From Lysobacter antibioticus (GTDB taxonomy: Bacteria > Pseudomonadota > Gammaproteobacteria > Xanthomonadales > Xanthomonadaceae), in NCBI RefSeq assembly GCF_001442535.1, contig NZ_CP013141.1, positions 5,583,374 to 5,601,650 of the forward strand: 18,277 bases of DNA, written 5' to 3'. Below, one piece after another: positions 1-18,277 of this stretch. The stretch's first letter is position 1. The number at the start of each line of letters is the position of its first letter. The notes beneath the pieces were generated by a model that was not told where the DNA came from, searched no databases, and saw only the letters and a list, made by a program, of their open reading frames with translations. Both the position numbers and the translations under genes were made by a program.

Positions 1-7
1 CGGTGAG

Positions 8-349: not shown

Positions 350-368
350 GGGTTCTTCTTGACTCCTA

Positions 369-1890: not shown

Positions 1891-2430
1891 ATGACAACCC
1901 ACGGTACTTCCCCCGGAGCGCGACTGGTCGATATCCCCTGGCCTCTGACTTTCGATGCATTTTCGTTCGGTGTTCGCTGCTACAACACATTGGCTAGCAA
2001 CATCATCTTCATGAACCATCAGTTCGCAGTAGAACTCGATGGTCCATCCGGCCAGCCAAGCTCGCCTGAATGGAAAGATGGCTGGACAGCTGGCTTCATC
2101 GTCATGGCCGAAGAAATGCCCCCCGATCCGGTAGAACTTCGCTGGACATCACTGGACGGCGCAGAACATTACGCGGAAATAGACCTGATCGAAGACATCT
2201 TTCCTCAGCGGCTGGTTTTGCACAGCGTGCCCAAAGAGGATGTCAATGAAGATTGGGCGCGGTACGAGGGCGGAAAAACTAGGCCGCCCCAGATACTGAT
2301 GGAGGTCAACGACCGGACCGTCAATGTCTACATGAAGGCAATGGTACTCACCAATTCCCCCCCGAATCCTGATCGTCCCGACATTATCGGCTGCCGAGAC
2401 TTAATTCTGGCCTGGACGAAGACCTACTAA
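1891..2430 (+). CDS. Unknown protein upstream of Tle1-like effector (adaptor or immunity candidate)
   Basis: This 179-residue protein is not one I recognise by family. I chose ATG 1891 because AAGGAGC sits 8 bp upstream (1876-1882). The open frame extends back to 1651, but that extension reads like non-coding sequence. No signal peptide is visible and the protein appears cytosolic, with alternating aromatic/hydrophobic strands (for example WTAGFIVMAEEM, PRPDIIGCRDLILAW-like segments), suggesting a beta-rich fold. It ends 14 bp before the lipase effector and is almost certainly cotranscribed with it. Known neighbours of such effectors are immunity proteins, chaperones or adaptors. A cytosolic immunity protein would be odd for an enzyme acting on membranes from the periplasm, so an adaptor/chaperone role is at least as likely. 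Both roles are inference. Confidence 0.75.
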   Translation: MTTHGTSPGARLVDIPWPLTFDAFSFGVRCYNTLASNIIFMNHQFAVELDGPSGQPSSPEWKDGWTAGFIVMAEEMPPDPVELRWTSLDGAEHYAEIDLIEDIFPQRLVLHSVPKEDVNEDWARYEGGKTRPPQILMEVNDRTVNVYMKAMVLTNSPPNPDRPDIIGCRDLILAWTKTY

Positions 2431-2444
2431 GGAAGGGGTGCGGC

Positions 2445-6572: not shown

Positions 6573-6761
6573 TCGGAAGAGCTACCGTGTTCTCCAGTTA
6601 ATCGCCCAGTTGTCGGAGCGTGAGTTCACAGTGAAGGATGGAATTGATTGGCGCAGTTGGTGACGCGCATATCTCGCTCGGAAAGCAGTCCCTGCCTGAC
6701 CGCGTATGACATCCCATCTGCAACGACATGAGAACCGGCTCGACAAAGGAAAATGTCAACG

Positions 6762-7709
6762 ATGAAAACGAAGCGCACTCGCCTTGCCGCCCTACCTTTT
6801 TTGATTGCTTGCTGTGTGCCAGTGCAAGCGGCCTCACCTGACAACGACTCTGACGCCAAACATGCCATCAAGCTTTTTCATGATCATTGTCTTGTGCTTC
6901 GATCGAAGCCAGACGAATTTGCCAAAGCGTTGGATAAGGTTGGCACTCGCCTGAAAGGAGATGAAGACAGGCAGTTTGGTATAGGGGAAATAGGTGACAG
7001 CTGGCGCACGTCAGACGGAAATTATGTTTTCTTCCGAAACAAATATTCGCGCTGCCGAATGTACATCCTCCCTCGCCAGATTACTGGCGTCCTGGGAGAG
7101 TTTGGTCGAATGGCGGATAACCCGCCGCACGGAATGACCAGCCGAGAAATTTTGCCTGACAAGCAACAAAAATTTGTCAGCTTTGTCTGGAGCGGAGACG
7201 GCGCCCTGATTCCAACGGATATGGTCATATATCCAAGCATGGACAAGGGTTCACATTGGACTCTCAGTGCAACCGATTACCGTGATGAGCCCGCCCCAAT
7301 CATTTGGGATCAGATCGGACCTGGCATCGATATATCCAAAATGCCACCCTCACGATCACGGAGCGCCAATATCGCGATATATCCGCTAGACGGCAACAAG
7401 GAGTTAACCAGCTGGATTGAAACGAATAAAATAAATCAGCAGGCCGATGGGTACGGAGATGTATGGACTTTTGACCCAAGAAAACCGGACAAAGGCTGGA
7501 GTCGCCTGGGCAAAGTCGTATCCAAGGATGGCAGCACCGAGGTTTACACTTTTCTGGCTGGCTACACCTTGACCAACTATTTGAACTACAAGGCAGCCAC
7601 CCAAGCAACCCAGTTGGCGTTGTCCAGATTCGGAAAGGGCGAGGAATCTCGTACCGATCCTGCCAGTGGCGCTCCCTTGCCGACGAGGAAAACGGGGCCT
7701 GGCGGATAA
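6762..7709 (+). CDS. Exported protein or lipoprotein, candidate immunity protein for the lipase effector
   Basis: This protein is about 315 residues long. I prefer ATG 6762 over ATG 6753 because AAAGGA (6745-6750) is only 2 bp from the first and 11 bp from the second. The N-terminus MKTKRTRLAALPFLIACC has positive residues followed by a hydrophobic core. LIAC fits a lipobox (lipidated Cys), while VQA/AS a few residues on offers an alternative signal peptidase I site. The mature part is soluble, mixed alpha/beta, with no catalytic motif that I recognise. It follows the effector by 189 bp on the same strand. Immunity proteins of X-T4SS effectors and of Tle-type lipases are typically periplasmic or lipoproteins, so immunity is the natural inference. 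The long gap allows its own promoter, as expected of an immunity gene. Confidence 0.72.
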   Translation: MKTKRTRLAALPFLIACCVPVQAASPDNDSDAKHAIKLFHDHCLVLRSKPDEFAKALDKVGTRLKGDEDRQFGIGEIGDSWRTSDGNYVFFRNKYSRCRMYILPRQITGVLGEFGRMADNPPHGMTSREILPDKQQKFVSFVWSGDGALIPTDMVIYPSMDKGSHWTLSATDYRDEPAPIIWDQIGPGIDISKMPPSRSRSANIAIYPLDGNKELTSWIETNKINQQADGYGDVWTFDPRKPDKGWSRLGKVVSKDGSTEVYTFLAGYTLTNYLNYKAATQATQLALSRFGKGEESRTDPASGAPLPTRKTGPGG

Positions 7710-7985
7710 GATCGCTTGGAGAAGTCGAATGCAACGCGGAACCACGGGACCGTACATGGTCTACCTTCTCGCCGATCAGCGCGCCGGCCCGTATGTGGTC
7801 GGCGTGGGCGGCCTACAGTGAGCCGTCCGCCATCATGTCCGCTATGTCGCCCATAGTGGTGTCGCTGGTGAGTTGACTAAGCTGATGCTAGACCTTCAGC
7901 CACGAGAGTTCACCCGGTCGGCCACCTCGGGTGGTGATCGCATGCTGGGGTCATCCGCTGCCCGCGAGCCAGTTGCGGATCTCGT
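7710..7985. other. Non-coding or decayed interval
   Basis: No intact gene is convincing here. A 30-codon plus-strand frame at 7729-7821 (reading YMVYLLADQRAGPYVVGVG) faintly resembles the first strands of GIY-YIG endonuclease domains (Y-V-Y-L-L-A ... Y-V-G-V). It stops just where the next conserved region should begin. In-frame translation after the stop continues to 7987 without recognisable GIY-YIG motifs. It may be a remnant of a GIY-YIG gene, or simply chance. Confidence 0.3.
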
Positions 7986-8279
7986 CTAACGTGGGGCCGA
8001 GGTTCCTGTGCGATCCCAGCTCAGGCCGCCAATCCTTGGTCCAAGGACAAGTTGCCATTCGGACTGCTTTGATCGATGCATGTCGGCCCAGGTGTCCCCA
8101 AAGGGTCCCTCCACACGGAGCAGCTTGCGGTGGACCAGGCGCGAAGGCTCCCCCCATTCATCGGCCTCTCGCTCCTCGATCAGGACGGCCACGGCTTCGC
8201 CATCCGCATAGAAGTCGGCCTTGCTGGTGCTCTTAAGTCGGCAGGGGTATCGGGAGATACAGGTCGGCATGGCCAACAT
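7986..8279 (-). CDS. Small hypothetical protein divergent from SRAP gene
   Basis: This 97-residue frame (or 94 residues if the fourth-codon ATG at 8270 is used) has protein-like composition, with alternating hydrophobic strands and charged loops (for example KADFYADGEAVAVLIEE and RLVHRKLLRVEGPFGDTW). It shares a 74-bp upstream region with the divergent SRAP gene. No strong ribosome site is visible at either start. The last dozen residues look unnatural (WDRTGTSAPR). A neighbouring minus-strand frame gives a more plausible tail (LGPTLDEIRNWL) towards 7951, so the 3' end may be frameshifted. Function is unknown. Confidence 0.42.
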   Translation of the reverse strand: MLAMPTCISRYPCRLKSTSKADFYADGEAVAVLIEEREADEWGEPSRLVHRKLLRVEGPFGDTWADMHRSKQSEWQLVLGPRIGGLSWDRTGTSAPR

Positions 8280-8353
8280 ATGGTAGCCGGACGCTGATCA
8301 CATTTTTAGGTCGCCGGGCGTAAGATCTGGTCAGATCCAGCCGGAGACCAGCC

Positions 8354-9364
8354 ATGTGCTATTCCGCAAAGGTCCGAGCCGAATACCGGGAGTATGTGAA
8401 GGAGTTCGGGGCCATCCTCTCGCTCGACCAGTACGTCGCCGAATTCTGGGAGCAGATGGGGGACGACTGGATCAAGAAGATGCCTTCGGCCTTGCGCGCC
8501 TGGTTCCGCGGTCCGGGGACCAAGGCCAAAGCACACATCGGCCAGTCCATCGAGGATTGGACTGCCAGGCAGATCCCGGAATACGAAGCCGAGCTGGCGA
8601 AGCAACTCGCCCGTCTGGAGGAGAACGAGCGGAAGCTGGCTAAGAAGGTCACCAAGACCGCTCAGGAGGAAGTCCGCAAAGCGACGGCGAAGATTGAGTC
8701 AACGGCAGCGATGCTGAAGTTGCTCACCAAACCGAATGCCGCGGCGGACACCGCCCGAATCTTCCCGCAGTCGATTGCGCCCATCATGGTGTGGGAGAAC
8801 GGCCGGCGCGTGGTCAAGATGATGCGCTTTCAGTGCCGAAAGGCTGGCGCGCCATCGAGCAGCGACTGGGTCATCGACCGGGTAACCAAGCAGAAGCGGA
8901 TGTCTGGCACGTACAACGCTCGGCGCGACAACCTGGAACGTTTCTGGCGAAAGCAATTCGGCTACAGCCACGGCATCGTAATTGCCGACACCTTCTTCGA
9001 GCACGTCTGGCGACACGACATGGAGGGCCGAGAGCTGCGTCCAGGCGAAAAGCGAGAAGACGTGATTCTCGAATTCGTACCGGACACCGACAAGACGATG
9101 CTGATCGCTTGCATCTGGTCGCACTGGGATGGTGCCAGTGCCGGCGAGCCTGACGAGCCAGACCTGCAGTCGTTTGCGTTCATCACGGATGACCCGCCCC
9201 CCGAAGTCGCCGCCGCGGGGCACGATAGGTGCGTTATTCCGATCAAGCCAGAAAACGTGGACGCCTGGTTGCAGCCAAACCCCGAGAACCTCGCCGCCAT
9301 GCATGCCATCCTTGACGATCGCGAACGTCCCTATTACGACCATCAGTTCGCCGCGGCAGCCTGA
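8354..9364 (+). CDS. SRAP-domain protein (YedK/HMCES family) with coiled-coil insertion
   Basis: This 336-residue protein belongs to the SOS-response-associated peptidase family. These enzymes form a thiazolidine crosslink with abasic sites in single-stranded DNA through Cys2 after removal of Met1. Visible conserved residues are Cys2 in MCYSAKV, Asn188 and Arg190 in GTYNARR, Glu216 in FFEHV and His290 in GHDRCVIPI, with DAWLQP following as in the family. The start has GGAG 7 bp upstream. Typical bacterial members are around 220 residues. Here roughly residues 40-135 are extra, and 70-130 is a Lys/Glu/Ala-rich predicted coiled coil. The insert separates Cys2 from the rest of the core. A role in protecting abasic or damaged DNA is established for the family; the job of the insert is unknown. 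Confidence 0.9.
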   Translation: MCYSAKVRAEYREYVKEFGAILSLDQYVAEFWEQMGDDWIKKMPSALRAWFRGPGTKAKAHIGQSIEDWTARQIPEYEAELAKQLARLEENERKLAKKVTKTAQEEVRKATAKIESTAAMLKLLTKPNAAADTARIFPQSIAPIMVWENGRRVVKMMRFQCRKAGAPSSSDWVIDRVTKQKRMSGTYNARRDNLERFWRKQFGYSHGIVIADTFFEHVWRHDMEGRELRPGEKREDVILEFVPDTDKTMLIACIWSHWDGASAGEPDEPDLQSFAFITDDPPPEVAAAGHDRCVIPIKPENVDAWLQPNPENLAAMHAILDDRERPYYDHQFAAAA

Positions 9365-9604
9365 TCAGGTCTGGCGTTCCGCCGGGTCCATTTTGCCTAG
9401 AGCGATCAGGAGCTCGTCGATCCGAGCGCATACATATTCGTGGGCATCACCATCGCTACCGGCTAGCTCGACAATTGGGTCCGCGTAGCAAGCGAATGCG
9501 GGCCAGAACTCGGCGTCGTCGGGGTGTTGGAGAGTGATCTCGACCGCATGCCGCTCAAGGGCTTTAAGGCTCCCGGTGAGGAGCGTGAGGGTTTCTGGCG
9601 TCAT
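9365..9604 (-). CDS. Small hypothetical protein convergent with SRAP gene
   Basis: This 79-residue acidic protein begins MTPETLTLLTGSLKALERH. ATG 9604 is preceded by TTGGAGAG, so I prefer it to the upstream in-frame ATG at 9661. The sequence is helical in pattern with DDAEFWPAFACYADPIVELAG in the middle and ends in AERQT. The stop codon abuts the stop of the SRAP gene with no gap, so the two genes converge end to end. It has no recognised domain. It overlaps the 3' end of the next minus-strand gene by 41 bp, suggesting translational coupling. Confidence 0.6.
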   Translation of the reverse strand: MTPETLTLLTGSLKALERHAVEITLQHPDDAEFWPAFACYADPIVELAGSDGDAHEYVCARIDELLIALGKMDPAERQT

Positions 9605-9932
9605 GGGTCTCTCCAAGGCAGCGTACGAAGGCGAGCGGGAACCTGTCTCGCAAGAAGTCATCGTTCTTAGCGGCCCATTTTTCGCACCAGCGCCGAGCCT
9701 GTGCCTCCGAGTCGGCGACCGCGTGCTTGCGCTGGTCCAACCGGCACCAGGCGTAGACCGTTACGAGCCACTGCCCGTTTCCGAGTGCAAGGATCTTGGC
9801 GACCACGTACACGTCGAGGTGCAGAATCCAGATCTCGTCGTCCGGGTTGGGGTCGCCCGGTTTCCAATGGTGGATGTTCCGGGGGCGCCAACGCTCCCAC
9901 CGATACCGTGATGGGGGTCGTGTCGTAGCCAT
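9564..9932 (-). CDS. Hypothetical Trp/Arg-rich small protein
   Basis: This 122-residue protein starts MATTRPPSRYRWERWRPRN. An upstream ATG at 9998 in the same frame would add 22 residues, but the extension is low in protein-like character. The body has beta-like segments (DEIWILHLDVYVVAKILALG, WLVTVYAWC) and a Trp-containing helical stretch (EAQARRWCEKWAAKNDDFL). It overlaps the 5' end of the 79-residue gene downstream by 41 bp. I recognise no family and see no clear ribosome site, so confidence is moderate. Association with an SRAP gene in an accessory region is the only context clue. Confidence 0.55.
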   Translation of the reverse strand: MATTRPPSRYRWERWRPRNIHHWKPGDPNPDDEIWILHLDVYVVAKILALGNGQWLVTVYAWCRLDQRKHAVADSEAQARRWCEKWAAKNDDFLRDRFPLAFVRCLGETHDARNPHAPHREP

Positions 9933-10247
9933 GAGCAGATTCTGCGCCGGCCGGTCTCTGTGGCTGCGACCGGTGATCGGAGACGATGAAGCGTTCATTT
10001 GGATTGCTCCCAGTCCGCCGGCCCCGGAACGGCAAGGAAGCCCGTAGTCCGCCTCTAGCTACGAGCCCCACCAGCCGACGTCGCCCTAGCCTGGCCCGCC
10101 CAAGGGGACGTCCGCCCGGTAGTTGCGAGCGTGGCACCGCGTGCGCGACGGGGCGACGTGAGGCCGCCTGACCGGAAGTGGTCTGCCGACCGAGAACCGG
10201 CTCGACCTCGGTCCAAGCCAGCGGGGACAGGAGGGGGCAAGGAGGGA

Positions 10248-10279
10248 AACTGGGGGATCAAGAGAGTAGGTCCCCAGTT
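10248..10279. repeat. Stem-loop, 8-bp arms
   Basis: AACTGGGG (10248-10255) and CCCCAGTT (10272-10279) are perfect inverted arms around a 16-nt loop. No T-tract follows directly, so an intrinsic terminator is not supported. Confidence 0.5.
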
Positions 10280-10370
10280 GCCGTGGGCGCGCCAAACTCC
10301 CAGCCTCAACTTTTTCTACGCCTCGTCGCAACGACGAAAAAGGCCTTATTTCCGAGGCTTTTGGCGGTAT

Positions 10371-10381
10371 CCATTGGTCGG
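10371..10381 (+). repeat. Repeat unit CCATTGGTCGG, copy 1
   Basis: The 11-mer CCATTGGTCGG is repeated exactly at 10446-10456. A 10-bp version lies inverted at 10547-10556. It stands five bases before a perfect DnaA box. It could be a short iteron-like protein binding site. Confidence 0.5.
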
Positions 10382-10385
10382 CGAG

Positions 10386-10394
10386 TTATCCACA
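10386..10394 (+). promoter_or_regulatory. DnaA box TTATCCACA
   Basis: TTATCCACA is the strict consensus of the high-affinity DnaA box. A single 9-mer can occur by chance, but it lies in a repeat-rich, gene-free stretch, five bases after a CCATTGGTCGG repeat. Confidence 0.45.
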
Positions 10395-10445
10395 GACAGG
10401 CAATTTGGCGATTTTTCCGCCTCTCTCCAGGCCTTTTTCTCCAAG

Positions 10446-10462
10446 CCATTGGTCGGCCGACC
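10446..10462 (+). repeat. Repeat CCATTGGTCGG copy 2 fused to 12-bp palindrome
   Basis: Copy 2 of CCATTGGTCGG (10446-10456) runs into GGTCGGCCGACC (10451-10462), a perfect 12-bp palindrome. This creates two opposed half-copies of the repeat core back to back. This is the architecture of a dimer binding site. Confidence 0.5.
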
Positions 10463-10505
10463 ATTGCTCGCCCCTTAAAATTCAGTCACTTACGAAGGCC
10501 GGTTC

Positions 10506-10521
10506 TTTTGACCTTTTGACC
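10506..10521 (+). repeat. Tandem TTTTGACC
   Basis: TTTTGACC occurs twice head to tail with no spacer (10506-10513 and 10514-10521). Confidence 0.5.
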
Positions 10522-10546
10522 CCAAGAAGACATCAAACCGCTTGAT

Positions 10547-10556
10547 CCGACCAATG
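10547..10556 (-). repeat. Repeat CATTGGTCGG copy 3, inverted
   Basis: CCGACCAATG is the exact reverse complement of the 10-bp core of the two upstream CATTGGTCGG copies. Confidence 0.45.
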
Positions 10557-10579
10557 ACGCCCGCTTGGGATGTGTGGAA

Positions 10580-10594
10580 GCATACGACGTATGC
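10580..10594. repeat. Short inverted repeat GCATAC-N3-GTATGC
   Basis: Perfect 6-bp arms surround GAC. This is a possible operator-type site about 220 bp upstream of the 10813 gene. Confidence 0.35.
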
Positions 10595-10812
10595 CTCCGA
10601 GATCAGCCCTATGGCTGCCCTATGCTGCCGTTTCAGACATCTCCACTACCTGTAGCGCTCGCTGAAGTCGTAGCACTCCATCTGTCACTGTTCATCAAGC
10701 CGCCAATTGATATTCGGTAAGGATTTGTAGTACTCACGGAAGCTTCTCCCTTGGGATCTGCCTAGGGCTACACTTGCAGCTCGGCTCCGCTGAGCCCCAG
10801 GAGCACACGCAC

Positions 10813-11316
10813 ATGGATCAGCAACCGAGTCACGCACCTTTCCGACTTTTTCGAATCAGCCCCGCGCCCTTTGGCAAACAGGCATTCGCGATCTGTGCTG
10901 CATTTCGGGATCATCGAAGCGATCTCAAATCTGAGTGCTTCGTCCTGATGCAAACGTCAGTGACGGATGGTCTTGCATTCGGCACTCGGTTCTCGTACTC
11001 AGATAAAACGGACGGACAATCGCCATTCGTAATTGATGAGGCGTTCGCGCTAGACGACGCTTTGCATCAAGCGGAGACGATGTACTCCGTACGGGCGCAA
11101 GAACTAGATCAAGTGTTTATGGAGAAGCTGGCCTGGGCGAGACCGAGTTTTTCGGAGATCGCTCAACACAGGCTTGTTGGCATTTGGGCTCACACTCCGC
11201 TTAGCGATTCGCTCCTGAGTATCGCTGACAAGTCAGGCTGCGAGCCGCTGAGCCAATTTATCTATTCGCTTCGTGCTCTCCCCAAATTCACGCAGACACA
11301 ACTGCTGCCATTCTAA
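10813..11316 (+). CDS. Hypothetical soluble protein
   Basis: This 167-residue protein is not one I recognise. ATG 10813 is favoured by AGGAG at 10799-10803. An in-frame ATG at 10774 lacks a comparable site. The protein has beta-strand-like segments (FRLFRISPAPFGKQAFAI, SECFVLMQTSVTDGLAFGTRF) and a helical C-terminal half (DALHQAETMYSVRAQELDQV). It has no signal peptide, membrane segment or catalytic motif. It lies isolated on the plus strand. Its size and surrounding non-coding spacers resemble a gene cassette, but no proper attC site is demonstrable at its 3' end. Confidence 0.65.
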   Translation: MDQQPSHAPFRLFRISPAPFGKQAFAICAAFRDHRSDLKSECFVLMQTSVTDGLAFGTRFSYSDKTDGQSPFVIDEAFALDDALHQAETMYSVRAQELDQVFMEKLAWARPSFSEIAQHRLVGIWAHTPLSDSLLSIADKSGCEPLSQFIYSLRALPKFTQTQLLPF

Positions 11317-11452
11317 CTGCAGAACTAATCGCCGCCAGAATATATCGGCCGCGATTCGCCGGGTCCAGAAACTTCTTCGGCGTTATGCAAAGCGAATCGG
11401 CCAAACAGTTGCAGTCCCCATAGCCCGCGGCTTCCAGCTAAATTTGTCCAAT

Positions 11453-11467
11453 CCGAAGCCGCTTCGC
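11453..11467 (+). repeat. CCGAAGCCGCTTCGC repeat, copy 1 (attC-like core)
   Basis: The 15-mer is repeated exactly at 11857-11871, so the two copies bracket the 98-residue gene. It resembles the hairpin tip of class 1 integron attC sites (CCGACGCCGCTTCGC). Forty bases downstream, AACTCAAGCGTCAACGC resembles the attC right end (AACTCAAGCGTTAGATGC), but with a mismatch in the core GTT. Confidence 0.35.
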
Positions 11468-11531
11468 CCGTAGGTGCATTAACATCTAGTCCGGATAACA
11501 TAACTCAAGCGTCAACGCGACGGAGATATCA

Positions 11532-11828
11532 ATGAAATACTTTGTCGATTTCCAGCGCATGCCAAAGGGGGCTCTTCGACCGCTCGATGAGGGCGAAGTC
11601 GTGCCACTTAAAATCAGCGCCGGCAGCGATCCGTCCCTACTCCCCAATGTGGGTGACTATGTGCTGATTGATAATTCAATGTATCGCGGTGAAGGACGAT
11701 CCAGCTTTACGGGAAAGGTGAGATCTCGCCTTTTTCGCTACATCTGTGCGAATGAGGAGAGCAACTGCGCAGTAACTATAGTCGTAGAAGATACCGACGA
11801 TGACTGGGAAAAGTTGGTCAAAGAATAG
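11532..11828 (+). CDS. Small hypothetical protein between attC-like repeats
   Basis: This 98-residue acidic protein starts at ATG 11532, with CGGAGAT placing GGAG about 8 bp upstream. It has a beta-rich pattern (MKYFVDFQRM, VGDYVLIDN, CAVTIVVED) and an acidic C-terminus (DTDDDWEKLVKE). An OB- or SH3-like small barrel is possible from the strand spacing, but this is a guess. It has no recognised family. It converges with the SLATT gene 295 bp away. Together with the flanking CCGAAGCCGCTTCGC copies, the unit has the size and layout of an integron-type cassette. Confidence 0.65.
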   Translation: MKYFVDFQRMPKGALRPLDEGEVVPLKISAGSDPSLLPNVGDYVLIDNSMYRGEGRSSFTGKVRSRLFRYICANEESNCAVTIVVEDTDDDWEKLVKE

Positions 11829-12123
11829 ACGAGTAAGGTTTAGTCTTTCATGCAAGCCGAAGCCGCTTCGCGGCTCGATGTGAGCGCTGCGGTTGACCGC
11901 GGAAACTGACGCGCCCACGGCTACTAAGTTCAAACCAGTCTCTTCACGCCAAGGAACGTCGAGGAACATTGGAGCGCAGCTTACAAGCTTGGTGCGTTCA
12001 CCGCTGGCTTGATCCGTTTCATCACGCCGACTCGTTAGGCGAACCCTTGGCAATTCCTGGCCTCGGCTGGCGTACTAAGCTGCGGTCCTTTCCGACTTTC
12101 TACAACACTGGCGCCGATCTGGT
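11829..12123. other. Convergent intergenic region
   Basis: These 295 bp lie between the convergent 98-residue gene and the SLATT gene. They contain the attC-like hairpin at 11857-11875. Frames reading through 11969-12196 on the plus strand and 12035-12259 on the minus strand overlap the SLATT gene and look like shadows. No other gene is supported. Confidence 0.45.
11857..11875 (+). repeat. CCGAAGCCGCTTCGC copy 2 with AGCCGC-TTC-GCGGCT hairpin
   Basis: The second exact copy of the 15-mer (11857-11871) contains a perfect 6-bp hairpin AGCCGC/GCGGCT with loop TTC (11861-11875). CAAGCCGA before it also matches the class 1 attC left side. The complementary right arm is not preserved, so this is at best a degenerate attC. 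It could equally serve as a transcription terminator stem for the upstream gene, though no T-tract follows. Confidence 0.4.
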
Positions 12124-12735
12124 TCACTGGCCAATCTTGATCGCCAAGAAAAGCTTGACGAATACGTACCCGACGAAGGCCATAGCGACAAAGTAGTGGG
12201 AGAAGATCATGGCGGTCACCAATCGGGCTTTGGTCCAGCGACCGACGTAAATCAGCCACTCGCTACGACTCTCGGGCTTCTCCGTGAGCAGCGTGAAGAG
12301 ATAGTCAATAGGCTTGTGGTTCGCGTACTTCTCGAGGATGTCATAATACTCCTTCGTCAGTTCAGCGTAATATTTAGCCGTCACGGGACCATTTATCCCG
12401 GCGAGCTTTCTAGCAAAGCGCCCAAGCTCGACGCCATTGCGGTGCATCGCCTCTGATCGCGAAACGAAGTTCTCTTGGCCGAGAAGTAGCGAGTAGACCA
12501 GGATGAGCACAGCAAGAACTGCTTGCGTGGCATTGAGATAGATCGCCTCGACACCAAAATGGATGTTGAACGCTTGCATCATCGGCACAAATACAAGCGC
12601 TGCCGATATGAGCGACACAGTCCATTGCGAAAACTTGTGGTGCCGCTCAAGGCGCTCGCTGGCTCGATACCTTGACCTGGTGGTGATCTTCGTCCGTCGC
12701 ACCAGTTCGTTAATGCGATTCTCAACATTTTCCAC
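12124..12735 (-). CDS. SLATT-family membrane protein (defence-associated)
   Basis: This 203-residue protein starts at a GTG (12735) preceded by the strong purine-rich site GGGAGGGAGG. Residues about 37-55 and 65-86 are the paired transmembrane helices of SLATT domains. They are followed by the conserved soluble helix region (RSEAMHRNGVELGRFARKL, 93-111). A third hydrophobic helix (about 175-198) ends the protein, which is beyond the minimal two-helix core. SLATT proteins are predicted pore-forming effectors of nucleotide-signalling conflict systems, acting in the inner membrane to kill or arrest infected cells. No nucleotidyltransferase, SLOG or reverse transcriptase gene accompanies it. Its nearest partner is the XRE gene 112 bp upstream on the same strand. 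Confidence 0.78.
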   Translation of the reverse strand: MENVENRINELVRRTKITTRSRYRASERLERHHKFSQWTVSLISAALVFVPMMQAFNIHFGVEAIYLNATQAVLAVLILVYSLLLGQENFVSRSEAMHRNGVELGRFARKLAGINGPVTAKYYAELTKEYYDILEKYANHKPIDYLFTLLTEKPESRSEWLIYVGRWTKARLVTAMIFSHYFVAMAFVGYVFVKLFLAIKIGQ

Positions 12736-12807
12736 GTTCCTCCCTCCCTGAGTCGCCGCGCTGCGCGTTGCGCGCCGGATAGCATACTGGCGCCGCCATT
12801 GCTCCAG

Positions 12808-12823
12808 GAGCACCACGGTGCTC
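12808..12823. repeat. Inverted repeat between XRE and SLATT genes
   Basis: GAGCACC and GGTGCTC form perfect 7-bp arms with a 2-bp centre (or a 6-bp stem with a 4-nt loop). It lies between the stop of the XRE gene and the start of the SLATT gene. It may be an attenuator, terminator or operator for SLATT. No T-tract is present. Confidence 0.35.
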
Positions 12824-12847
12824 GGATCGAGGGATGCGCGCGCCCAG

Positions 12848-13186
12848 CTAGGTCGCGTTCCGAACAAGTTCCTCGATTGCATCGATAAGCTTGGCCACCC
12901 TCGTCTCGCTGCCTGGCACCCCGGCGACCAACGCGTCAATCCTGGCGCCAAGCTCACTTGTCGGCGCTCGAACGGAAAAAGCGGACACCCCGAGAAATGT
13001 GCAAAGTTTGCGCACATTTGGAGAGAGCGTGATCATTTGCCCGCGCTCCATCTTCGAAATTTGCCCGGGGTCGACCCCCGTCTGCTCGGACACAAAAATA
13101 AGCGTTATCCCTGCCCTAGCACGAGCTTCACGCAAGCGCTTCCCTAGCCGCAAGGCGTCCGCTTGTGTGTTGAATCGCTCGGCCAT
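12848..13186 (-). CDS. XRE-family transcriptional repressor
   Basis: This 112-residue protein has a Cro/C1-type HTH at about residues 13-68. It includes GKRLREARARAGITL, FVSEQTGVDPGQISKMERGQ and KLCTFLGVSAF, with a short helical C-terminal tail (RVAKLIDAIEELV). I use ATG 13186; an in-frame ATG at 13207 would add 7 residues. Neither start has a good ribosome site. The palindrome ATGTGC-N9-GCACAT sits exactly between the two starts, and a second copy lies inside the gene. It is divergent from the DUF4031-MazG-UDG operon, 44 bp from that operon's first codon, and upstream of SLATT. It therefore probably represses both directions. Confidence 0.85.
   Translation of the reverse strand: MAERFNTQADALRLGKRLREARARAGITLIFVSEQTGVDPGQISKMERGQMITLSPNVRKLCTFLGVSAFSVRAPTSELGARIDALVAGVPGSETRVAKLIDAIEELVRNAT
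12995..13019. promoter_or_regulatory. Intragenic operator-like palindrome AAATGTGC-N9-GCACATTT
   Basis: Perfect 8-bp arms (12995-13002 and 13012-13019) flank a 9-bp spacer inside the XRE coding region. The core ATGTGC-N9-GCACAT is identical in arms and spacing to the palindrome at 13187-13207. The overlapping GCAAAGTTTGC (13001-13011) adds a nested palindrome. Confidence 0.6.
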
Positions 13187-13207
13187 ATGTGCTAAATATT
13201 TGCACAT
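13187..13207. promoter_or_regulatory. Operator-like palindrome ATGTGC-N9-GCACAT at the divergent promoter
   Basis: Perfect 6-bp arms (13187-13192, 13202-13207) surround a 9-bp AT-rich spacer. It lies between divergent starts (XRE at 13186, DUF4031 at 13231), where an autorepressor site would be expected. ATTTGCA-type half-sites continue to 13216. Confidence 0.65.
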
Positions 13208-13230
13208 TATTTGCAACTTTGCGAGCCCGG

Positions 13231-13521
13231 ATGGCCGTCTATGTGGACTCAGAAGGCATTCGCTGGCGGGGCAAAGATTGGTGCCACTTGGTGGCCGACT
13301 CGATGGAAGAACTTCACGATTTTGCGGCCCGGCTCGGATTGCAACGCCGCTGGTTTCAGAATAAGGGGCGCTATCCTCACTACGACGTAACAATGAGGGT
13401 TCGTGACCGCGCCTTGCTGATGGGGGCGATCGATGCTGACCGCGCCACGTTGATCGCCTGCTGTAAGCGCGTCCGAGCAGATATGCTGCAGCGGAACGCT
13501 CAAGCGATGATGCCCTGGTAA
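13231..13521 (+). CDS. DUF4031 domain protein
   Basis: This 96-residue protein covers the DUF4031 family from end to end. It starts MAVYVD, and then shows WRGKDWCHLVADS (Trp17, His19), a helix with DEL-like MEELHDFAARLG, a WFQNKG loop, PHYD (His50, Asp52) and RDRALLMGA. I chose ATG 13231 because homologues begin at MAVYVD; the upstream ATG at 13189 lies inside the operator. The biochemical function of DUF4031 is unknown; small stand-alone members are common in phages and mobile elements. The His/Asp pattern hints at a catalytic or metal-binding role, which is inference. It is the first gene of an operon, 24 bp before the MazG-like gene. Confidence 0.85.
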   Translation: MAVYVDSEGIRWRGKDWCHLVADSMEELHDFAARLGLQRRWFQNKGRYPHYDVTMRVRDRALLMGAIDADRATLIACCKRVRADMLQRNAQAMMPW

Positions 13522-13545
13522 CGCCTCTTGGCGAAGGACTGCTAG

Positions 13546-14754
13546 ATGATCCGCGCGCTACCCCAACCACAGCCGCTCTCGTTGCCCGAGTACGCACTTA
13601 AGGCTCGACAGACCAATCGATTTGAGAGCACGCCTGACGAGTTCGACAATCTCCGCTTCGGGTACTTCGGAGAGGCTGGGGGGCTGCTCGCCTCGGTAAA
13701 GAAGGCTGTCCGCGATCAGTTGACGGAACCACGGAGTGCTCTAGCCGCCGAAGAATTGGGCGATGCACTCTGGTATTTGGTTGGGACGGCGACCTTCCTG
13801 GAGATTTCGCCCAATGAGTTGGGCGAACACTGCATCCGTCGATTGCGCAAGCGCTTCGGAGAAAACGATCGACCCGTGTCCGAGCCCGTGAGTTTCCGCC
13901 AAATTGACGGGATCCTTGATACCCACAAAGAAGGCTGGGACCTGGACAGAGTCAGGCAGCTGGGCATTTTAGCTAATGCAGCCGGAAGTCTTGCCAGCAC
14001 ATCGTTAACTCAGTTTCGGGCGATGAGTCCACCAGCGCTGCGGGAACACTTTGGCACCCTATTTGCCGAGTGGGTTCTCACTTGTGGCTGCTTTGACCTG
14101 CGTGTCGAGAGCATTGCGCGGGACAACCTCGACAAAATTTCGAGTCGCTGGCCGGGCGACGACAGGATCTATACGGACTATTTCGACCCAGATGGTAAGT
14201 TCCCCGCTCACGAGCAGCTCCCAAGACAATTCGAGATTGAGTTCGTCGAACGCGATGGCTACGTAGTTCAACTGCTCAACGGCGTCTTCATCGGGGATCG
14301 CCTCACCGATAATAGCAACGAGGCAGACGATTACCGCTTTCACGATGTGTTCCATCTCGCCTACATTGCTTATCTTGGATGGTCGCCCGTAGTGAGGGGC
14401 CTGCTGAAGCGCAAGCGCAAGTCCGATGGAAAGATTGACCAGAACGAGGACGGTGCACGTGCCATGATCATTGAGGAAGGCATCGCCACTTGGATCTTCA
14501 ACCACGCCAAATATTTTGAATTCTACGATGGTGTGGAGGCCGGCAAGCTCGACTACGGACTCCTCAAGCAGATTCAAAATATGGTTGCTGGTTACGAGGT
14601 GGACCAATGTAGACTCTGGCAGTGGGAGCTCGCGATCTTGAAAGGATTTGAGGTGTTTCGTCTTCTGAGACTGCACCGTGGTGGAATAGTCTCAGTAGAC
14701 ATGGAAAGCCACGAGTTATCGTTTCGCCCATTTAGTACGTTAGCAGTACAATGA
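13546..14754 (+). CDS. Tandem MazG-like nucleotide pyrophosphohydrolase with unknown C-terminal domain
   Basis: This 402-residue protein starts at ATG 13546 with GAAGGA 7 bp upstream. Residues about 13-105 are an all-alpha NTP pyrophosphohydrolase (MazG) domain, with GEAGG (Glu43) and EELGDALWY (Glu69, Glu70, Asp73). These provide the acidic Mg-binding set, and the domain ends in RLRKRFGE. Residues about 130-205 repeat the pattern (GILANAAGSLAS, AEWVLTCGCFD, NLDKISSRWPGD) without the acidic motif, so this is a degenerate second copy. Residues about 225-396 form a domain I cannot name, with FHDVFHLAYIAYLGWSP (His266, Asp267, His270) and EDGARAMIIEEGI (Glu310-Glu311), which could form a metal site. 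MazG enzymes hydrolyse (d)NTPs to monophosphates. It overlaps the UDG gene by 4 bp (ATGA), implying coupled synthesis. Confidence 0.85.
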   Translation: MIRALPQPQPLSLPEYALKARQTNRFESTPDEFDNLRFGYFGEAGGLLASVKKAVRDQLTEPRSALAAEELGDALWYLVGTATFLEISPNELGEHCIRRLRKRFGENDRPVSEPVSFRQIDGILDTHKEGWDLDRVRQLGILANAAGSLASTSLTQFRAMSPPALREHFGTLFAEWVLTCGCFDLRVESIARDNLDKISSRWPGDDRIYTDYFDPDGKFPAHEQLPRQFEIEFVERDGYVVQLLNGVFIGDRLTDNSNEADDYRFHDVFHLAYIAYLGWSPVVRGLLKRKRKSDGKIDQNEDGARAMIIEEGIATWIFNHAKYFEFYDGVEAGKLDYGLLKQIQNMVAGYEVDQCRLWQWELAILKGFEVFRLLRLHRGGIVSVDMESHELSFRPFSTLAVQ

Positions 14755-15422
14755 CCCCGACCGCCTTCGTTAAAGCGCTTTCCTCCCTGAGCCTCAACAA
14801 CGTCTTCAACCCGTATGCGGACGTTTGTCCTGTGCATGATCGCGCGGATGCTGCTGAGTCCAGAAGGAGGAATCTGCGGACCTACTTGGCGGCAGCGTCA
14901 GAGATCGGCGTCGACACGATCTGGATGGGTAGGGATCTCGGCTACCGCGGCGGCCGCCGAACTGGCCTAGCCTTGACCGATGAATACCATCTTCCGGAAC
15001 TAGCGAGGCGCTATCCCGGTTGCCATTCTCGGCAAGCTACTCGCGGCCCAGCTGTTGCAGAACGTACGGCAGCCGAGATCTGGTCCGTCATCAGAGCGAT
15101 CGAAACGCCACCGCTCTTGTGGAACGTTTTCCCATTTCATCCTCACGAGCCTGACAATCCGTTCACCAATCGCCGATTCACAGCTCGCGAGCTTTACCAG
15201 GTCGATGAATTGAACAGCGCCCTGATTTCCTGGTTGAAGATCCGGCAGATTGTTGGGATCGGGCAGGATGCGGCGTCCTATGCACAGCGGTTTGGTGTAA
15301 CGGTGATCACTATTCGCCATCCGAGCTATGGCGGAGTCAAGGAATTCCGTGATGGTATGCAGCGCCTTTATAGACTGCCAGCCAACGCCTTGGACCGGAC
15401 CCGGCAGGCCGTTCTGCTCTGA
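14751..15422 (+). CDS. Uracil-DNA glycosylase superfamily protein
   Basis: This 223-residue protein overlaps the MazG-like gene by ATGA. It carries UDG-superfamily landmarks: motif region IWMGRDLGYRGGRRTGLALTD (57-77), then WNVFPFHPHEP (124-134, corresponding to the FPFHP strand of several UDG families) and RHPSYGG (189-195). The family usually has GEAPG or similar in the first motif. Here it reads GRDLGYRGG, so the water-activating residue and base specificity may differ. Enzymes of this superfamily excise uracil or other altered bases from DNA, leaving abasic sites. The N-terminal segment has a CPVHD motif and an Arg-rich stretch. Its genetic coupling to a nucleotide pyrophosphohydrolase suggests one pathway acting on abnormal pyrimidines. 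It could be housekeeping repair, but the defence-island context favours phage targeting. Confidence 0.82.
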   Translation: MTPTAFVKALSSLSLNNVFNPYADVCPVHDRADAAESRRRNLRTYLAAASEIGVDTIWMGRDLGYRGGRRTGLALTDEYHLPELARRYPGCHSRQATRGPAVAERTAAEIWSVIRAIETPPLLWNVFPFHPHEPDNPFTNRRFTARELYQVDELNSALISWLKIRQIVGIGQDAASYAQRFGVTVITIRHPSYGGVKEFRDGMQRLYRLPANALDRTRQAVLL

Positions 15423-15438
15423 CCCCTAGGGCTACGGT

Positions 15439-15459
15439 AACCGCTTTAACAATGCGGTT
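15439..15459. terminator. Hairpin between convergent operons
   Basis: AACCGC (15439-15444) and GCGGTT (15454-15459) form a perfect 6-bp stem with a 9-nt loop. It overlaps the stop of the minus-strand TS-like gene, 16 bp after the UDG stop. The position suits a bidirectional terminator, but neither side has a clear T-tract. Confidence 0.35.
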
Positions 15460-16227
15460 GCAGCGTCGGCACCCCGAACGAGCTCACGTCCAAGTGAGCC
15501 AACGTGCTTATACAGGTTAAGACCCCGGGAGCGTATCCGGACTCCTTGCTTACAAAGTGTAGTAGCTGACTCAGCCCGACCAAGTTGCCGAGGGCTCGCT
15601 GCGCATAGTGATGTGATCTATACACTGCGGTTAGATCGACGGCGCCCGCCGCGGGGGTGAGCTTGAAGCTCAGGTGACTGAGACAGGGGATGTTCGTCGC
15701 GCGCCCCCCGTCGATAGCGGGCTCGTAAATGGGAAGTTCGCATCCAACTTCTCCTTCAAGCAAGTCGTTGACATCGTGGATGCCGAGCTCATAGGCGGAC
15801 TTTAATTTCCGCTCAGTCTTGGTTTCTGAAGCTTGCTAACGATCGTTTCCAGAGGATTGTTGGTCTTTCTCGACTTAGGATGGGAACGATCCATCATGCG
15901 CATGGCGTACGTACCCCAAGTCCCTCGCTTCTTCCCTGACTTCATGGAGTCCAGGTAGCGCTTATAGAAGTCGGGGCGGCCGAACCGGAGGTACGGCCCT
16001 TGCGGAAAGATGGTTCCAGCAACGGTATATACGCCGATCCCGTCAGCGGTTTTCCGAAGTGTGGAGTCAATTTCGTTGATGATCTGCAGTTCGCCGGCGC
16101 CGAGCAGAGTCGGCGAGGTGATCTCCAGTACAAAGTTTCGTTCTGTCTTCTGAGGTGTCGCATTCAAGCTTCGCGCTGCGGCCAACCAGACAGGAACAAA
16201 TCGTTCATCACTGAATACCTTTGCCAC
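15446..16227 (-). pseudogene. Thymidylate-synthase-like protein, split by a -1 frameshift
   Basis: Two minus-strand frames together cover a TS-like protein of about 260 residues. The first (GTG 16227 to TAA 15802, 141 residues) contains the GTYAMRMMDRS and NNPLETIVSKL regions. The second frame (open from about 15835 to 15446) continues with KLKSAYELG, NIPCLSHLSF (the PC motif with the candidate catalytic Cys), VYRSHHYAQRALGNLVGLSQLL (the QRS..D...G.P.N region) and CISTLAHLD. The overlap at 15802-15835 is consistent with loss of one base. No canonical slippery heptamer is visible, so an inactivating mutation or read error is likelier than programmed shifting. GGAGGG overlaps the end of the C1 peptidase gene, whose stop is 2 bp before the GTG. 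TS methylates dUMP; relatives hydroxymethylate pyrimidine nucleotides. The substrate here is unknown. Confidence 0.72.
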
Positions 16228-16229
16228 GC

Positions 16230-16865
16230 TTACCCTCCAAAAGCACAGATTGCGTGCTCGCGAATATAGGTCTCAGGGAGCCAAGCCTGCCCGTGCGTTC
16301 CCCAACTGTCACCCCAGCTGTTGCGGATGCGGAAGTAAGGAGCACCGCTCTCGTCCCGACCAATCCCAACCACCGTGACAGCGTGAAGGACGGTGTTTGG
16401 CGCAGGCAACTGTTCGAATTCGATCAGTCCGTCCACTGGGTTGAAGAAGCTTTGAGTCAACCTCAGGCCAAGGCCAACAGGCCGATGATTGCTAAGCGTT
16501 TCAACAATCGATTCGGGATCATGCGGGAGCAAATCAAGCAACGTGCCGTAAAGGGCGAAACCAGCTGGGGGTGTCGCAACTGGCGCTGAGGGCTCCGCTG
16601 TCTGGTACGGGAAGTCTGCCTCGACAGGTTGTCCGGATGACGCCGCTTGCAGGGCAAGCCCTAAGCGGACACCGGCGCCCGGAGCCCAGTTAGGCGTCAA
16701 GTTGGCAGCGCCCTGGTAGACGTACTCAGGGCTTAGCACTTCGACCTGCGGAGCGAATCGAAGGTTTAGCTCCGAAAGCGCGAATGCAATGCAAGTTGGT
16801 CGCTCCCCTTGGTCTCGCGCAGGGTTGCCTGTCTGCGATAGGGAGATATCTTCCTTGATGATCAC
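16230..16865 (-). CDS. Papain-like C1 family cysteine peptidase
   Basis: This 211-residue protein has the full papain catalytic set. DQGERPTCIAFAL gives the oxyanion Gln19 and nucleophile Cys25; LHAVTVVGIG gives His161; RIRNSWGDSWGTHG gives Asn182 in the classical NSWG context. There is no signal peptide and no N-terminal inhibitory propeptide, so it is a cytosolic, pre-activated enzyme that needs an external inhibitor. Its ATG overlaps the stop of the M78/chagasin gene by 4 bp. Its own stop is 2 bp from the TS-like gene. Chagasin-type domains are established inhibitors of C1 peptidases, and one is fused to the upstream gene product. The natural reading is a toxin or effector peptidase held in check by its operon partner. 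The substrate is unknown. Confidence 0.88.
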   Translation of the reverse strand: MIIKEDISLSQTGNPARDQGERPTCIAFALSELNLRFAPQVEVLSPEYVYQGAANLTPNWAPGAGVRLGLALQAASSGQPVEADFPYQTAEPSAPVATPPAGFALYGTLLDLLPHDPESIVETLSNHRPVGLGLRLTQSFFNPVDGLIEFEQLPAPNTVLHAVTVVGIGRDESGAPYFRIRNSWGDSWGTHGQAWLPETYIREHAICAFGG

Positions 16866-17878
16866 GCGACTGGCACCTCGCTCAACAGCTGCTGCTTGGC
16901 AACACGGGTTAGACCAGGCCCAATTTGCTCAAACTTGGCTCTGGTTTCGAACGCGGCGTTGACTTCGCCATCCTTCAGCCACGGACGCCTCTCCTCCATG
17001 GCCAGGATCATGGGGGCGCCGTTCGCGGCTTGAGACGGGTCGTCGACAGTCAACACGAACTCAGCCGTAGTGACACCGAACACGAGTTGCTTTGGGTCGG
17101 TCACCTTCTCGGCGGGGCGCTGGGCTGGGCAGACCTGGAACCCTTCTGATGCGAGTTCACCTAATGACCAGAGATAGCCCGATGAGGCTTTGCTCTTCAA
17201 CCTAACCAGTATCTGATCGTCTGTGCGCGGCTCGAGGATGCTGGTGCGGTCCGTTTCATCCAACAGCCAAACCTCTTTGCGCGATTCGAAATGATGCCCC
17301 TCAAGCAGAGCGTGTTTGATTTCGATCGGTTGAATTCGTAGTAGGTCTTTGACCACGCCAGTCTCCAGAAGCTTCTGGCGGGCGAGTGACCATGCCGTAG
17401 CCGTGTAGCTAATTCCCAGCCGCAGGGAGAGCTGGTAAAGGACGGTTGGGTCCTTGAGCGACTGGACGCTCCAGCGTTTGCGGCGCATGACGTTGGCAAG
17501 CAGGCCGCGAGGGGTCAAGAGGTGATATGCGAACCAATCGGCCTCTTGTTCCTGGCGCTCCGACTTTGGCCCGAAGTCCATGGAATCGTCAGCCGTCGAG
17601 CCATGTCCCATGAAATAGTGCCCGAGTTCGTGGGCGCAGGTCAGGTGCACCAGTCCCGCCGACCGCTCGGAATTGATAAGGATCCCGGACACGTCATCTC
17701 GAATGAACGCTCCTAGAAGCTTGTCCATGGGGCGAAGAAGCACAGGAACGCCCTCTCCCCCAGCAATCAAGAAAGGGTCTACTCGCGTATACCCCTCCTG
17801 CTCGACACGGGCCTTGGCACCCGAGTCGTGATAGACCTCTCTGGCTCGATCGGCGGCGTTCCTGATGTGAGGGAGCAT
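16862..17878 (-). CDS. ImmA/IrrE (M78) metallopeptidase fused to a chagasin-like (I42) inhibitor domain
   Basis: This 338-residue protein starts at ATG 17878 with AGGAG 6 bp upstream. Residues about 20-175 are an ImmA/IrrE peptidase: CAHELGHYFMGH carries the zinc motif HELGH (83-87), and QEADWFAYHLL gives the third ligand Glu112. After a linker, residues about 205-320 look like a chagasin fold. KASSGYLW (230-237) matches the NPTTGYxW loop, a strand pair TTAEFVLTVDD/APMILAMEE follows, and ERRPW (297-300) matches the conserved RPW loop. M78 peptidases cleave XRE-type repressors in response to signals (ImmA-ImmR, IrrE-DdrO). Chagasins block papain-like peptidases. The fusion, between an XRE gene and a C1 peptidase gene, suggests one protein that controls both transcription and peptidase activity. 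Confidence 0.85.
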   Translation of the reverse strand: MLPHIRNAADRAREVYHDSGAKARVEQEGYTRVDPFLIAGGEGVPVLLRPMDKLLGAFIRDDVSGILINSERSAGLVHLTCAHELGHYFMGHGSTADDSMDFGPKSERQEQEADWFAYHLLTPRGLLANVMRRKRWSVQSLKDPTVLYQLSLRLGISYTATAWSLARQKLLETGVVKDLLRIQPIEIKHALLEGHHFESRKEVWLLDETDRTSILEPRTDDQILVRLKSKASSGYLWSLGELASEGFQVCPAQRPAEKVTDPKQLVFGVTTAEFVLTVDDPSQAANGAPMILAMEERRPWLKDGEVNAAFETRAKFEQIGPGLTRVAKQQLLSEVPVA

Positions 17879-17887
17879 TCCTTACTC

Positions 17888-18244
17888 CTATCGGCTGGTC
17901 TTCGTTGAATGCTTCAAAAACTCTGCGAATCGGGCCACTTCATCGAGATCGCTCTCTGACAACCCCTTAATTGCCCGCGCTAAGAAGGCCAACTGCTCAG
18001 GTCCTTGCGGGGGCGGCTCCTTCCCCGTCAACAGGTATTCCAGTGTCCTTCTATACAAGCGGGCTAGAACGCTCAGCTCGGTGGCCTCCACTTTGCGACT
18101 ACCCGACTCGATATGAGTCACCGCCGGGCGCGATAATCCTAATGCATTTGCGACTTCTTCTTGAGACAGGCCGACATATTCCCGCGATTGCCGCAGCCGC
18201 TCCGCCATCTCGGCCCTTTGAGCATCCTTGTCGTGGCTAGTCAT
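17888..18244 (-). CDS. XRE-family regulator, first gene of the M78/C1 peptidase operon
   Basis: This 118-residue protein has a Cro/C1-type HTH at about residues 13-68. It includes MAERLRQSREYVGLSQEEVANALGL-type helices, then SRPAVTHIESGSRKVEA and LSVLARLYRRTLEYLLTG. A C-terminal helical tail follows (LAFLARAIKGLSESDLDEVARFAEFLK). ATG 18244 has CGGAG about 8 bp upstream. The stop is 9 bp before the M78 gene and overlaps its ribosome site. In ImmR/ImmA and DdrO/IrrE pairs the M78 peptidase cleaves such a repressor, so this is the likely autoregulator and M78 substrate. The promoter lies at or beyond the right edge of the window. Confidence 0.9.
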   Translation of the reverse strand: MTSHDKDAQRAEMAERLRQSREYVGLSQEEVANALGLSRPAVTHIESGSRKVEATELSVLARLYRRTLEYLLTGKEPPPQGPEQLAFLARAIKGLSESDLDEVARFAEFLKHSTKTSR

Positions 18245-18277
18245 CGGTATGCTCCGCCGCCACGTATTTGAGAACTT

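Follow-up and report, generated by a model that had tools for sequence, protein, structure and literature searches.

Among the described systems closest to the locus reported here is CapH-CapP, which the available part of PMC13373217 presents as a regulator of operons of the cyclic-oligonucleotide-based anti-phage signalling system (CBASS) and of other immune operons. A second is PprI/IrrE-DdrO. For PprI, the accessible portion of PMC10904395 reports that binding of single-stranded DNA (ssDNA), and activation by it, require Arg85, Arg207 and Arg267, the latter two lying within a GAF-like domain. In this work we describe a related switch in Lysobacter antibioticus, in a stretch of 18,277 nucleotides (the window) that is one whole contig between 36-N linkers in a concatenated pseudochromosome. 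Here an XRE regulator and an M78 metallopeptidase are encoded side by side and are homologous to CapH and CapP by profile and fold matches. The metallopeptidase carries a C-terminal domain of the chagasin (I42) fold and is followed by a papain-like C1 peptidase.

We propose, with confidence a little better than even, that these genes belong to a mobile, switch-controlled (CapH/CapP-like) nucleotide-modification cassette with a leashed papain-type effector, the switch protease itself carrying the fused inhibitor. The most likely purpose of the cassette would be anti-phage or anti-plasmid defence. The new element is the I42/C1 unit, within CapH/CapP-controlled nucleotide-centric cassettes. The core features, all on the minus strand, are:

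17888..18244, minus strand: XRE/CapH-like repressor, 118 amino acids, gene 2 of the operon (Pfam HTH_31 1.5e-13; PADLOC capH 1.2e-12)
16862..17878, minus strand: M78 (ImmA/IrrE/CapP-like) metallopeptidase with C-terminal chagasin (I42)-fold domain, 338 amino acids (Pfam M78 9.9e-13; PADLOC capP 2.8e-16)
17318..17878, minus strand: M78 part, residues 1-187, with HExxH at residues 83-87 (17618-17632)
16928..17287, minus strand: chagasin/I42-fold domain, residues 198-317, with loops SGYLW (17168-17182) and RPW (16979-16987)
16230..16865, minus strand: papain-like C1 peptidase, 211 amino acids (Pfam C1 1.4e-10), with a GTG start overlapping the M78 stop by 4 nucleotides

A sequence-only reading of the window had described these three genes, and they exist as it described them. 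Of its overall interpretation, the inhibitor fold, the loops, the catalytic set and the co-occurrence of the genes have stood, and the idea of a stand-alone module has not.

The evidence begins with the C-terminal domain. Structure comparison of an AlphaFold2 (AF2) model of the M78 fusion (pLDDT 86.4, pTM 0.87) gives the I42 fold for residues 198-317, in keeping with the chagasin-like domain that had been suggested. The loop positions align with the inhibitory loops of 2wgn, 2cio and 3m86 (G-Y-x-W, GG and RPW). Conservation was counted over 53 loci, namely two contigs of the window's own genome, 30 genome loci, five relatives that may repeat species, and 16 plasmids, several of them near-identical. 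The SGYLW and RPW loops are retained across this set: with alignment gaps scored as misses, the first loop has Gly in 52, Tyr or Phe in 47 and Trp in 52 of the 53 loci, the second loop has its Gly in 48, and the RPW loop has Pro in 43 and Trp in 49. Three homologues (L164, L166 and L261) pass the PF09394 cut-off. Judged by its fold and loops, the domain very likely acts as an inhibitor. The switch pair to which it is attached is also conserved, with XRE found in all 53 loci inspected (own contigs counted in) and the HExxH residues of M78 kept in 52-53 of 53.

The candidate target is also intact. The C1 profile matches cathepsin H at 3.4e-24, and all 37 alignment rows have Gln19, Cys25, His161 and Asn182, bearing out the complete Gln-Cys-His-Asn set reported earlier; across the 53 loci the catalytic residues are kept in 52-53. 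Papain-type C1A peptidases usually, though not obligatorily, have an N-terminal propeptide. Here the open reading frame (ORF) starts about 24 residues ahead of Cys25, so the enzyme has neither leader nor propeptide, as had been proposed. That C1 is a defence effector has, on these comparisons, about an even chance of being right.

The fusion and C1 travel together. A scan of species genomes by two peptide patterns, to which fusions with neither pattern are invisible, returned 48 loci. We kept the 30 with near full-length M78 fusions (L003-L032) and dropped 18 with weak partial M78 matches (L033-L050), next to which no C1 was found (0 of 18). In all 30 kept loci XRE lies directly before and C1 directly after M78/I42, and in 23 the M78 stop and the C1 start share 4 nucleotides. 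One kept locus has a broken M78 frame: in L032 (7962-8998, Diaphorobacter aerolatus) the M78/I42 gene is in two broken frames, with the frames of XRE, C1 and the thymidylate-synthase-like (TS-like) gene intact. The fusion was also found on 16 plasmid records, and profiles detect XRE, M78 and C1 in each of them. The conserved triplet that the earlier reading proposed to look for is thus present in 30/30 genome and 16/16 plasmid loci.

The pairing is just as strict in the reverse direction. An alphaproteobacterial C1 query at 1e-15 matched 14 of 72,556 plasmids, all 14 among the 16 fusion plasmids; at this threshold it missed the C1 of the other two (Burkholderia glumae and Haloarcula). A search of 398 genomes from the phylum found the C1 subfamily (1e-25) in one genome beyond the window's own, and that genome too has the cassette. 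Among 274 genomes of the class, 14 besides our own match the C1 profile at 1e-10. Since their reading frames are longer (288-1267 amino acids) and none of the 14 genomes was found to hold an M78 fusion, these are other C1 peptidases. Together these comparisons are strong evidence that M78/I42 and C1 are coupled, perhaps as the outcome of one evolutionary event.

The stand-alone three-gene module that had been envisaged is not borne out. The genes sit in a larger operon with the order acyl carrier protein (ACP)-like, XRE, M78/I42, C1, TS-like, under one conserved palindrome, and this five-gene operon usually faces a second one that encodes a uracil-DNA glycosylase (UDG)-like protein and MazG_C. 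Profiles find ACP-like, XRE and C1 genes in all 30 genome loci, TS-like in 29, UDG-like in 28 and MazG_C in 27 (L017 and L023 end at contig ends). The locus that lacks TS-like, UDG-like and MazG_C genes within its 17 kb is L028, from Burkholderia sp. lig30, where the cassette ends after C1 and an HTH gene follows (9667-10255), possibly a natural deletion. Within the window the additional cassette genes are:

15446..16227, minus strand: TS-like gene, frameshifted in the window (pieces 15802-16227 and 15446-15763)
14751..15422, plus strand: UDG-like gene, convergent with the operon; homologues annotated uracil-DNA glycosylase
13546..14754, plus strand: MazG/MazG_C protein, 402 amino acids, overlapping the UDG-like gene by 4 nucleotides (Pfam MazG_C 3.3e-78)
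12848..13207, minus strand: second XRE regulator (XRE2), divergent from MazG_C (Pfam HTH_19 3.2e-9)

The ACP-like first gene lies outside the window. Its attachment Ser is present in 52 of 52 proteins; its own Pfam score is 16.2 (cut-off 20.8), PP-binding is matched at E 0.5 in 7 of 30 members, and its 33 PDB profile matches are mostly acyl carrier proteins and weak, the best at 0.0038. In the haloarchaeal locus L166 a 4'-phosphopantetheinyl transferase gene stands right before it (5.6e-6, 26.8 bits, cut-off 25), an arrangement that speaks for a functional carrier protein. One would not expect ACP-dependent chemistry in an archaeon. Besides this transferase, the same haloarchaeal plasmid cassette (L166, 2110-5110) encodes an HMUDK domain protein and a protein annotated as dTMP kinase.

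An intact copy of the TS-like gene (265 amino acids) is found on an overlapping contig (L002:3152-3949), and the window's frameshifts are probably sequence errors, since that copy does not have them. The frames are split in L026 too, and are annotated as two genes in L165 and L173. The AF2 model of the intact copy (pLDDT 83.9) has as its top Foldseek matches cytidine monophosphate (CMP) hydroxymethylase MilA and thymidylate synthase, from 7e-9; Cys182 (51/52), Arg204 (51/52) and Asn215 (52/52) are conserved and presumably correspond to the thymidylate synthase active site. With a Pfam score of 11.9, below the cut-off of 24.3, this fourth gene, counted from XRE, is predicted from its model to encode a thymidylate synthase superfamily fold.

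Some components vary. The UDG-like homologue in L164 matches Pfam UDG at 3.4e-8, and the window's own UDG-like protein has no Pfam UDG match and no PDB match. A homologue of XRE2 lies beside MazG in 27/27 MazG-bearing genome loci, divergent in 26 and with MazG reversed in L024; the same model did not find XRE2 in 13 MazG-bearing plasmid loci. Loci L166 (Haloarcula), L173 (R. ruizarguesonis) and L261 (a viral contig) have no UDG-MazG_C in the stretch covered, and have nearby a protein with the helical domain of 5-hydroxymethyldeoxyuridine (5-hmdU) DNA kinase (2.2e-66 to 8.2e-112), which in L261 adjoins a TS gene.

Upstream of the ACP-like gene is a palindrome of the type TGTACGA-N3-TCGTACA. Scored over 10 fixed and 2 self-complementary positions (maximum 12), it reaches at least 10 in 33 of 47 loci, compared with 1.1% of base-composition shuffles, a count inflated by the derivation of the pattern from some of the loci counted. 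In L027 and L166 the score is only 7. An exact match to the inner 15 bases occurs once in the window's genome; if L002:858 is the ACP start, the site ends about 30 bp short of it. The palindrome fits one autoregulated operon under XRE, and so also the repressor role that had been assigned to this protein. A similar element was sought on the MazG/XRE2 side and rejected, as 1 of 26 loci reached the score, the same as shuffles.

A natural comparison is provided by cassettes that have no C1. A TS-like query against plasmids gave 22 records, the 16 cassettes and six others; L269 (B. arboris) shows a partial TS-like match only. Of these six, five (from two Streptomyces, two cyanobacteria and R. rosettiformans) encode, by profiles, XRE-M78-TS-like and a MazG_C protein, together with a gene annotated as nucleotide kinase, whose HMUDK domain was verified in L265. 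Their palindromes score 10-11. The gene before XRE is an annotated acyl carrier protein in three (Pfam pass in L264, 32.3) and a small hypothetical in two. No C1 was found in these five sister cassettes at E 0.1 within the stretches covered, and their M78 proteins (289-298 amino acids) match neither Pfam I42 at E 0.1 nor the cassette's own I42 profile. With all filters off that profile gives at most 3 bits (five sequences searched, best E 0.036), which leaves room for a distant I42 relative without the loops. In a profile-profile alignment the homology runs through M78 into the first C-terminal strands (window residues 28-225) and ends before the loop at 233. The I42 loops are hence present with C1 and absent without it (Fisher test of 46 versus 5 loci, descent ignored: 4e-7). 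The parsimonious account is that a nucleotide-modification cassette either gained or lost C1 and a working inhibitor domain together. With both kinds of cassette available in nature, the coupling can be tested directly.

The cassette is patchy in distribution, partly plasmid-borne, and ranges from Xanthomonadales to a haloarchaeon. It occurs in 3/20 genomes of the genus, 6/395 of the family and 1/274 of the class, with our own genome counted each time, and 11 of the 16 fusion plasmids are predicted to be conjugative. We found no DNA match in E. coli to a 3.1-kb Pseudomonas cassette stretch, a search that would miss divergent copies. A phage origin was considered and rejected: of 50,697 phage records, none matched a window-type C1 query, and M78 gave a single match, partial and generic. 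Among the matches listed for viral contigs were generic M78 proteins and distant papains, and one 48-kb IMG/VR contig (L261, 2317-7725), which ends on one side in an integrase-like ORF, carries the five-gene operon together with a thymidylate synthase and the 5-hmdU DNA kinase domain protein. Shedu, caspase-family, AbiEii and RES-Xre genes are among the neighbours annotated in the records. Caspase-family genes lie near the cassette on four rhizobial plasmids (L165 2176-4101; L172 2194-4116; L173 1618-2811; L167 1-582).

The proposed mechanism is as follows. At rest, XRE would repress the operon from the upstream palindrome, and the I42 domain, made from the same message, would plug the active-site cleft of the propeptide-less, cytosolic C1, taking over the job of the missing propeptide. 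Once triggered, M78 would cleave XRE, as CapP cleaves CapH, and the operon would be derepressed. Activation of M78, by conformational change or self-cleavage, would free C1 to cleave cellular or invader proteins. A more specific version, possible though on the doubtful side, is an uncharacterised immune cassette whose signalling metallopeptidase doubles as the leash: I42 would have replaced the sensor domain, C1 occupancy and the nucleotide or ACP state would be read by the protein that controls transcription, and one proteolytic event would both derepress and unleash.

Several findings weigh against this proposal. The window's I42 domain scores below the PF09394 gathering threshold (15.4 versus 27.2), and the palindrome count is inflated as described above. 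The five C1-less M78 proteins form one clade at midpoint rooting (support 0.946), and the correlation between C1 and the I42 loops may therefore be a single gain or loss and not many independent events. PADLOC gave no match in the window for the C1, TS-like, UDG-like and MazG_C proteins. For the 135 ORFs that flank the 30 genome loci, the PADLOC families listed (25 of 224) include type I restriction-modification, SIR2, Gabija GajA and reverse transcriptases; as each listed family matches one of the 135 ORFs, a defence-island setting is at most suggested.

Direct ssDNA sensing of the PprI kind is also unlikely. With the Arg85-equivalent position located by the HExxH spacing in the available part of PMC10904395, Arg was found at this position in 0 of 52 M78 proteins (1 of 53 rows is gapped), the residues being Leu, Ile, Met, Gln or Val; aligned CapP and IrrE carry Arg there. 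In addition, the GAF-like domain of PprI is replaced by the I42 fold. Another ssDNA site is possible. The suggestion that DNA damage releases the peptidase through an ssDNA-activated M78 is weakened by these results. The TS-like, UDG-like, MazG_C and ACP proteins would probably generate or sense the trigger, a nucleotide, DNA-base or ACP-linked signal.

The alternative that survives best, though unlikely, is a homeostatic leash. In it C1 would serve the modification pathway as a processing enzyme, with ACP, XRE or a modified product as its substrate, and no cell killing would be involved. I42 would dock C1 on M78 and report its amount, with excess C1 leading M78 to cleave XRE and so to more inhibitor. 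The place of I42, where PprI has its GAF-like domain, the leaderless C1 ORF and the joint retention of the genes with the invariant ACP Ser (52/52) are in its favour. The cassettes of the two Streptomyces, the two cyanobacteria and R. rosettiformans, without C1 or I42 loops, argue against it: given these five sisters, C1 is dispensable for the basic chemistry.

Less probable still is the arrangement put forward by the sequence-only reading, a type II toxin-antitoxin-like system with C1 as toxin, M78/I42 as antitoxin, XRE as autoregulator and release upon DNA damage by ssDNA-activated M78. The co-occurrence of inhibitor and peptidase, the similarity to CapH/CapP and the conserved palindrome would all be expected of it, and the conserved pairing at its heart has been upheld. 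The two-gene module has not: an ACP-like gene (30/30) and a TS-like gene (29/30) come along in the genome loci, as part of a larger operon. The missing PprI Arg and the exchanged C-terminal domain stand against its trigger.

It is very improbable that the papain fold serves as an acyl- or aminoacyl-transferase working with ACP in nucleobase hypermodification, I42 being a scaffold and not an inhibitor. The first gene with its invariant Ser and its weak matches to acyl carrier proteins, the phosphopantetheinyl transferase genes adjoining some cassettes (L166, L171) and the 5-hmdU DNA kinase neighbours would suit such chemistry. Against this, TS-like and MazG_C persist in the C1-less sisters, at least three of the five also have an annotated acyl carrier protein, and the inhibitory loops are found only where C1 is present. 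Finally, we give practically no credence to an accidental neighbourhood with I42 as a relic, which the sub-threshold Pfam score of the window's domain might suggest, as it is contradicted by 46 of 46 loci (30 genome, 16 plasmid) that keep the genes together and by the conserved loops.

The remainder of the window holds features of separate interest. A SLATT_5 membrane effector family protein lies directly downstream of XRE2:

12124-13017, minus strand: SLATT_5 protein (PF18160 1.2e-42, 133.5 bits, cut-off 60; PADLOC RTasSLATT 2.1e-32)

The listed ORF runs into XRE2, which makes an internal true start probable. Further away are a 1375-amino-acid protein (2445-6572, plus strand) with type VI secretion Tle1-like phospholipase and peptidoglycan-binding domains, and an SOS-response associated peptidase (SRAP) protein (8354-9364, plus strand) with its domain at residues 126-321 (PF02586 8.8e-15) and a long N-terminal extension. 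The last 6.1 kb of the window match the end of another contig at 99.9%, oriented as for an unmerged overlap. We rejected an operon duplication as probably false, since the window is exactly one contig and the second copy is this terminal match. Apparent duplications in assembly GCF_001442535.1 call for care (contig-end overlap, window 1-18277).

If the proposal of a leashed, switch-controlled effector is true, a chagasin-type inhibitor is genetically tied to one peptidase within bacterial cells, I42 proteins gain an intracellular role that can be put to the test, and the M78/XRE switch can be rewired by exchanging its C-terminal domain for an effector inhibitor. The cassette, present on conjugative plasmids and in hosts from Xanthomonadales to a haloarchaeon, brings a papain-type enzyme together with enzymes of nucleotide modification and may be a new kind of switchable antiviral defence. 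No description of an M78-chagasin/C1 operon was found in the listed titles and abstract openings of open-access papers, nor in the available parts of PMC7824862, PMC10853773 and PMC7159879.

How, then, does the cassette compare with known systems? The available part of the DefensePredictor report (PMC13092281) counts thymidylate synthase as one of the domains newly validated for E. coli defence, names MazG, MazG-C and UDG in predicted systems, and cites Burroughs et al. 2015 for nucleotide-centric systems, which may include parts of the cassette. These TS, MazG, MazG-C and UDG components are shared, the TS being compared by description only; in contrast, that part of the report has no chagasin, ImmA or C1 peptidase. 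The fold and three loops are common to the window's domain and the chagasin/ICP family I42 (2h7w, 3m86, 2wgn), whereas here the inhibitor is leaderless, fused to a metallopeptidase and encoded in one operon with a C1 gene. That C1 resembles papain and cathepsin C1A peptidases in family profile and catalytic Gln-Cys-His-Asn, and differs in being leaderless and propeptide-less with a candidate inhibitor in the same operon. The M78 fold, HExxH and an XRE partner are shared with PprI/IrrE-DdrO as described in the accessible portion of PMC10904395, but the GAF-like domain and Arg85 required there for ssDNA activation are absent. Unlike in CapP and IrrE, the Arg that these two share when aligned, seven residues before the HExxH His, is not conserved. 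The cassette has in common with CapH-CapP (PMC13373217, in the part available; structure 7t5t) an XRE and M78 peptidase near the operon head and a palindrome upstream; here the C-terminal domain has the I42 inhibitor fold, an ACP-like gene comes first, and the operon encodes C1 and TS-like proteins.

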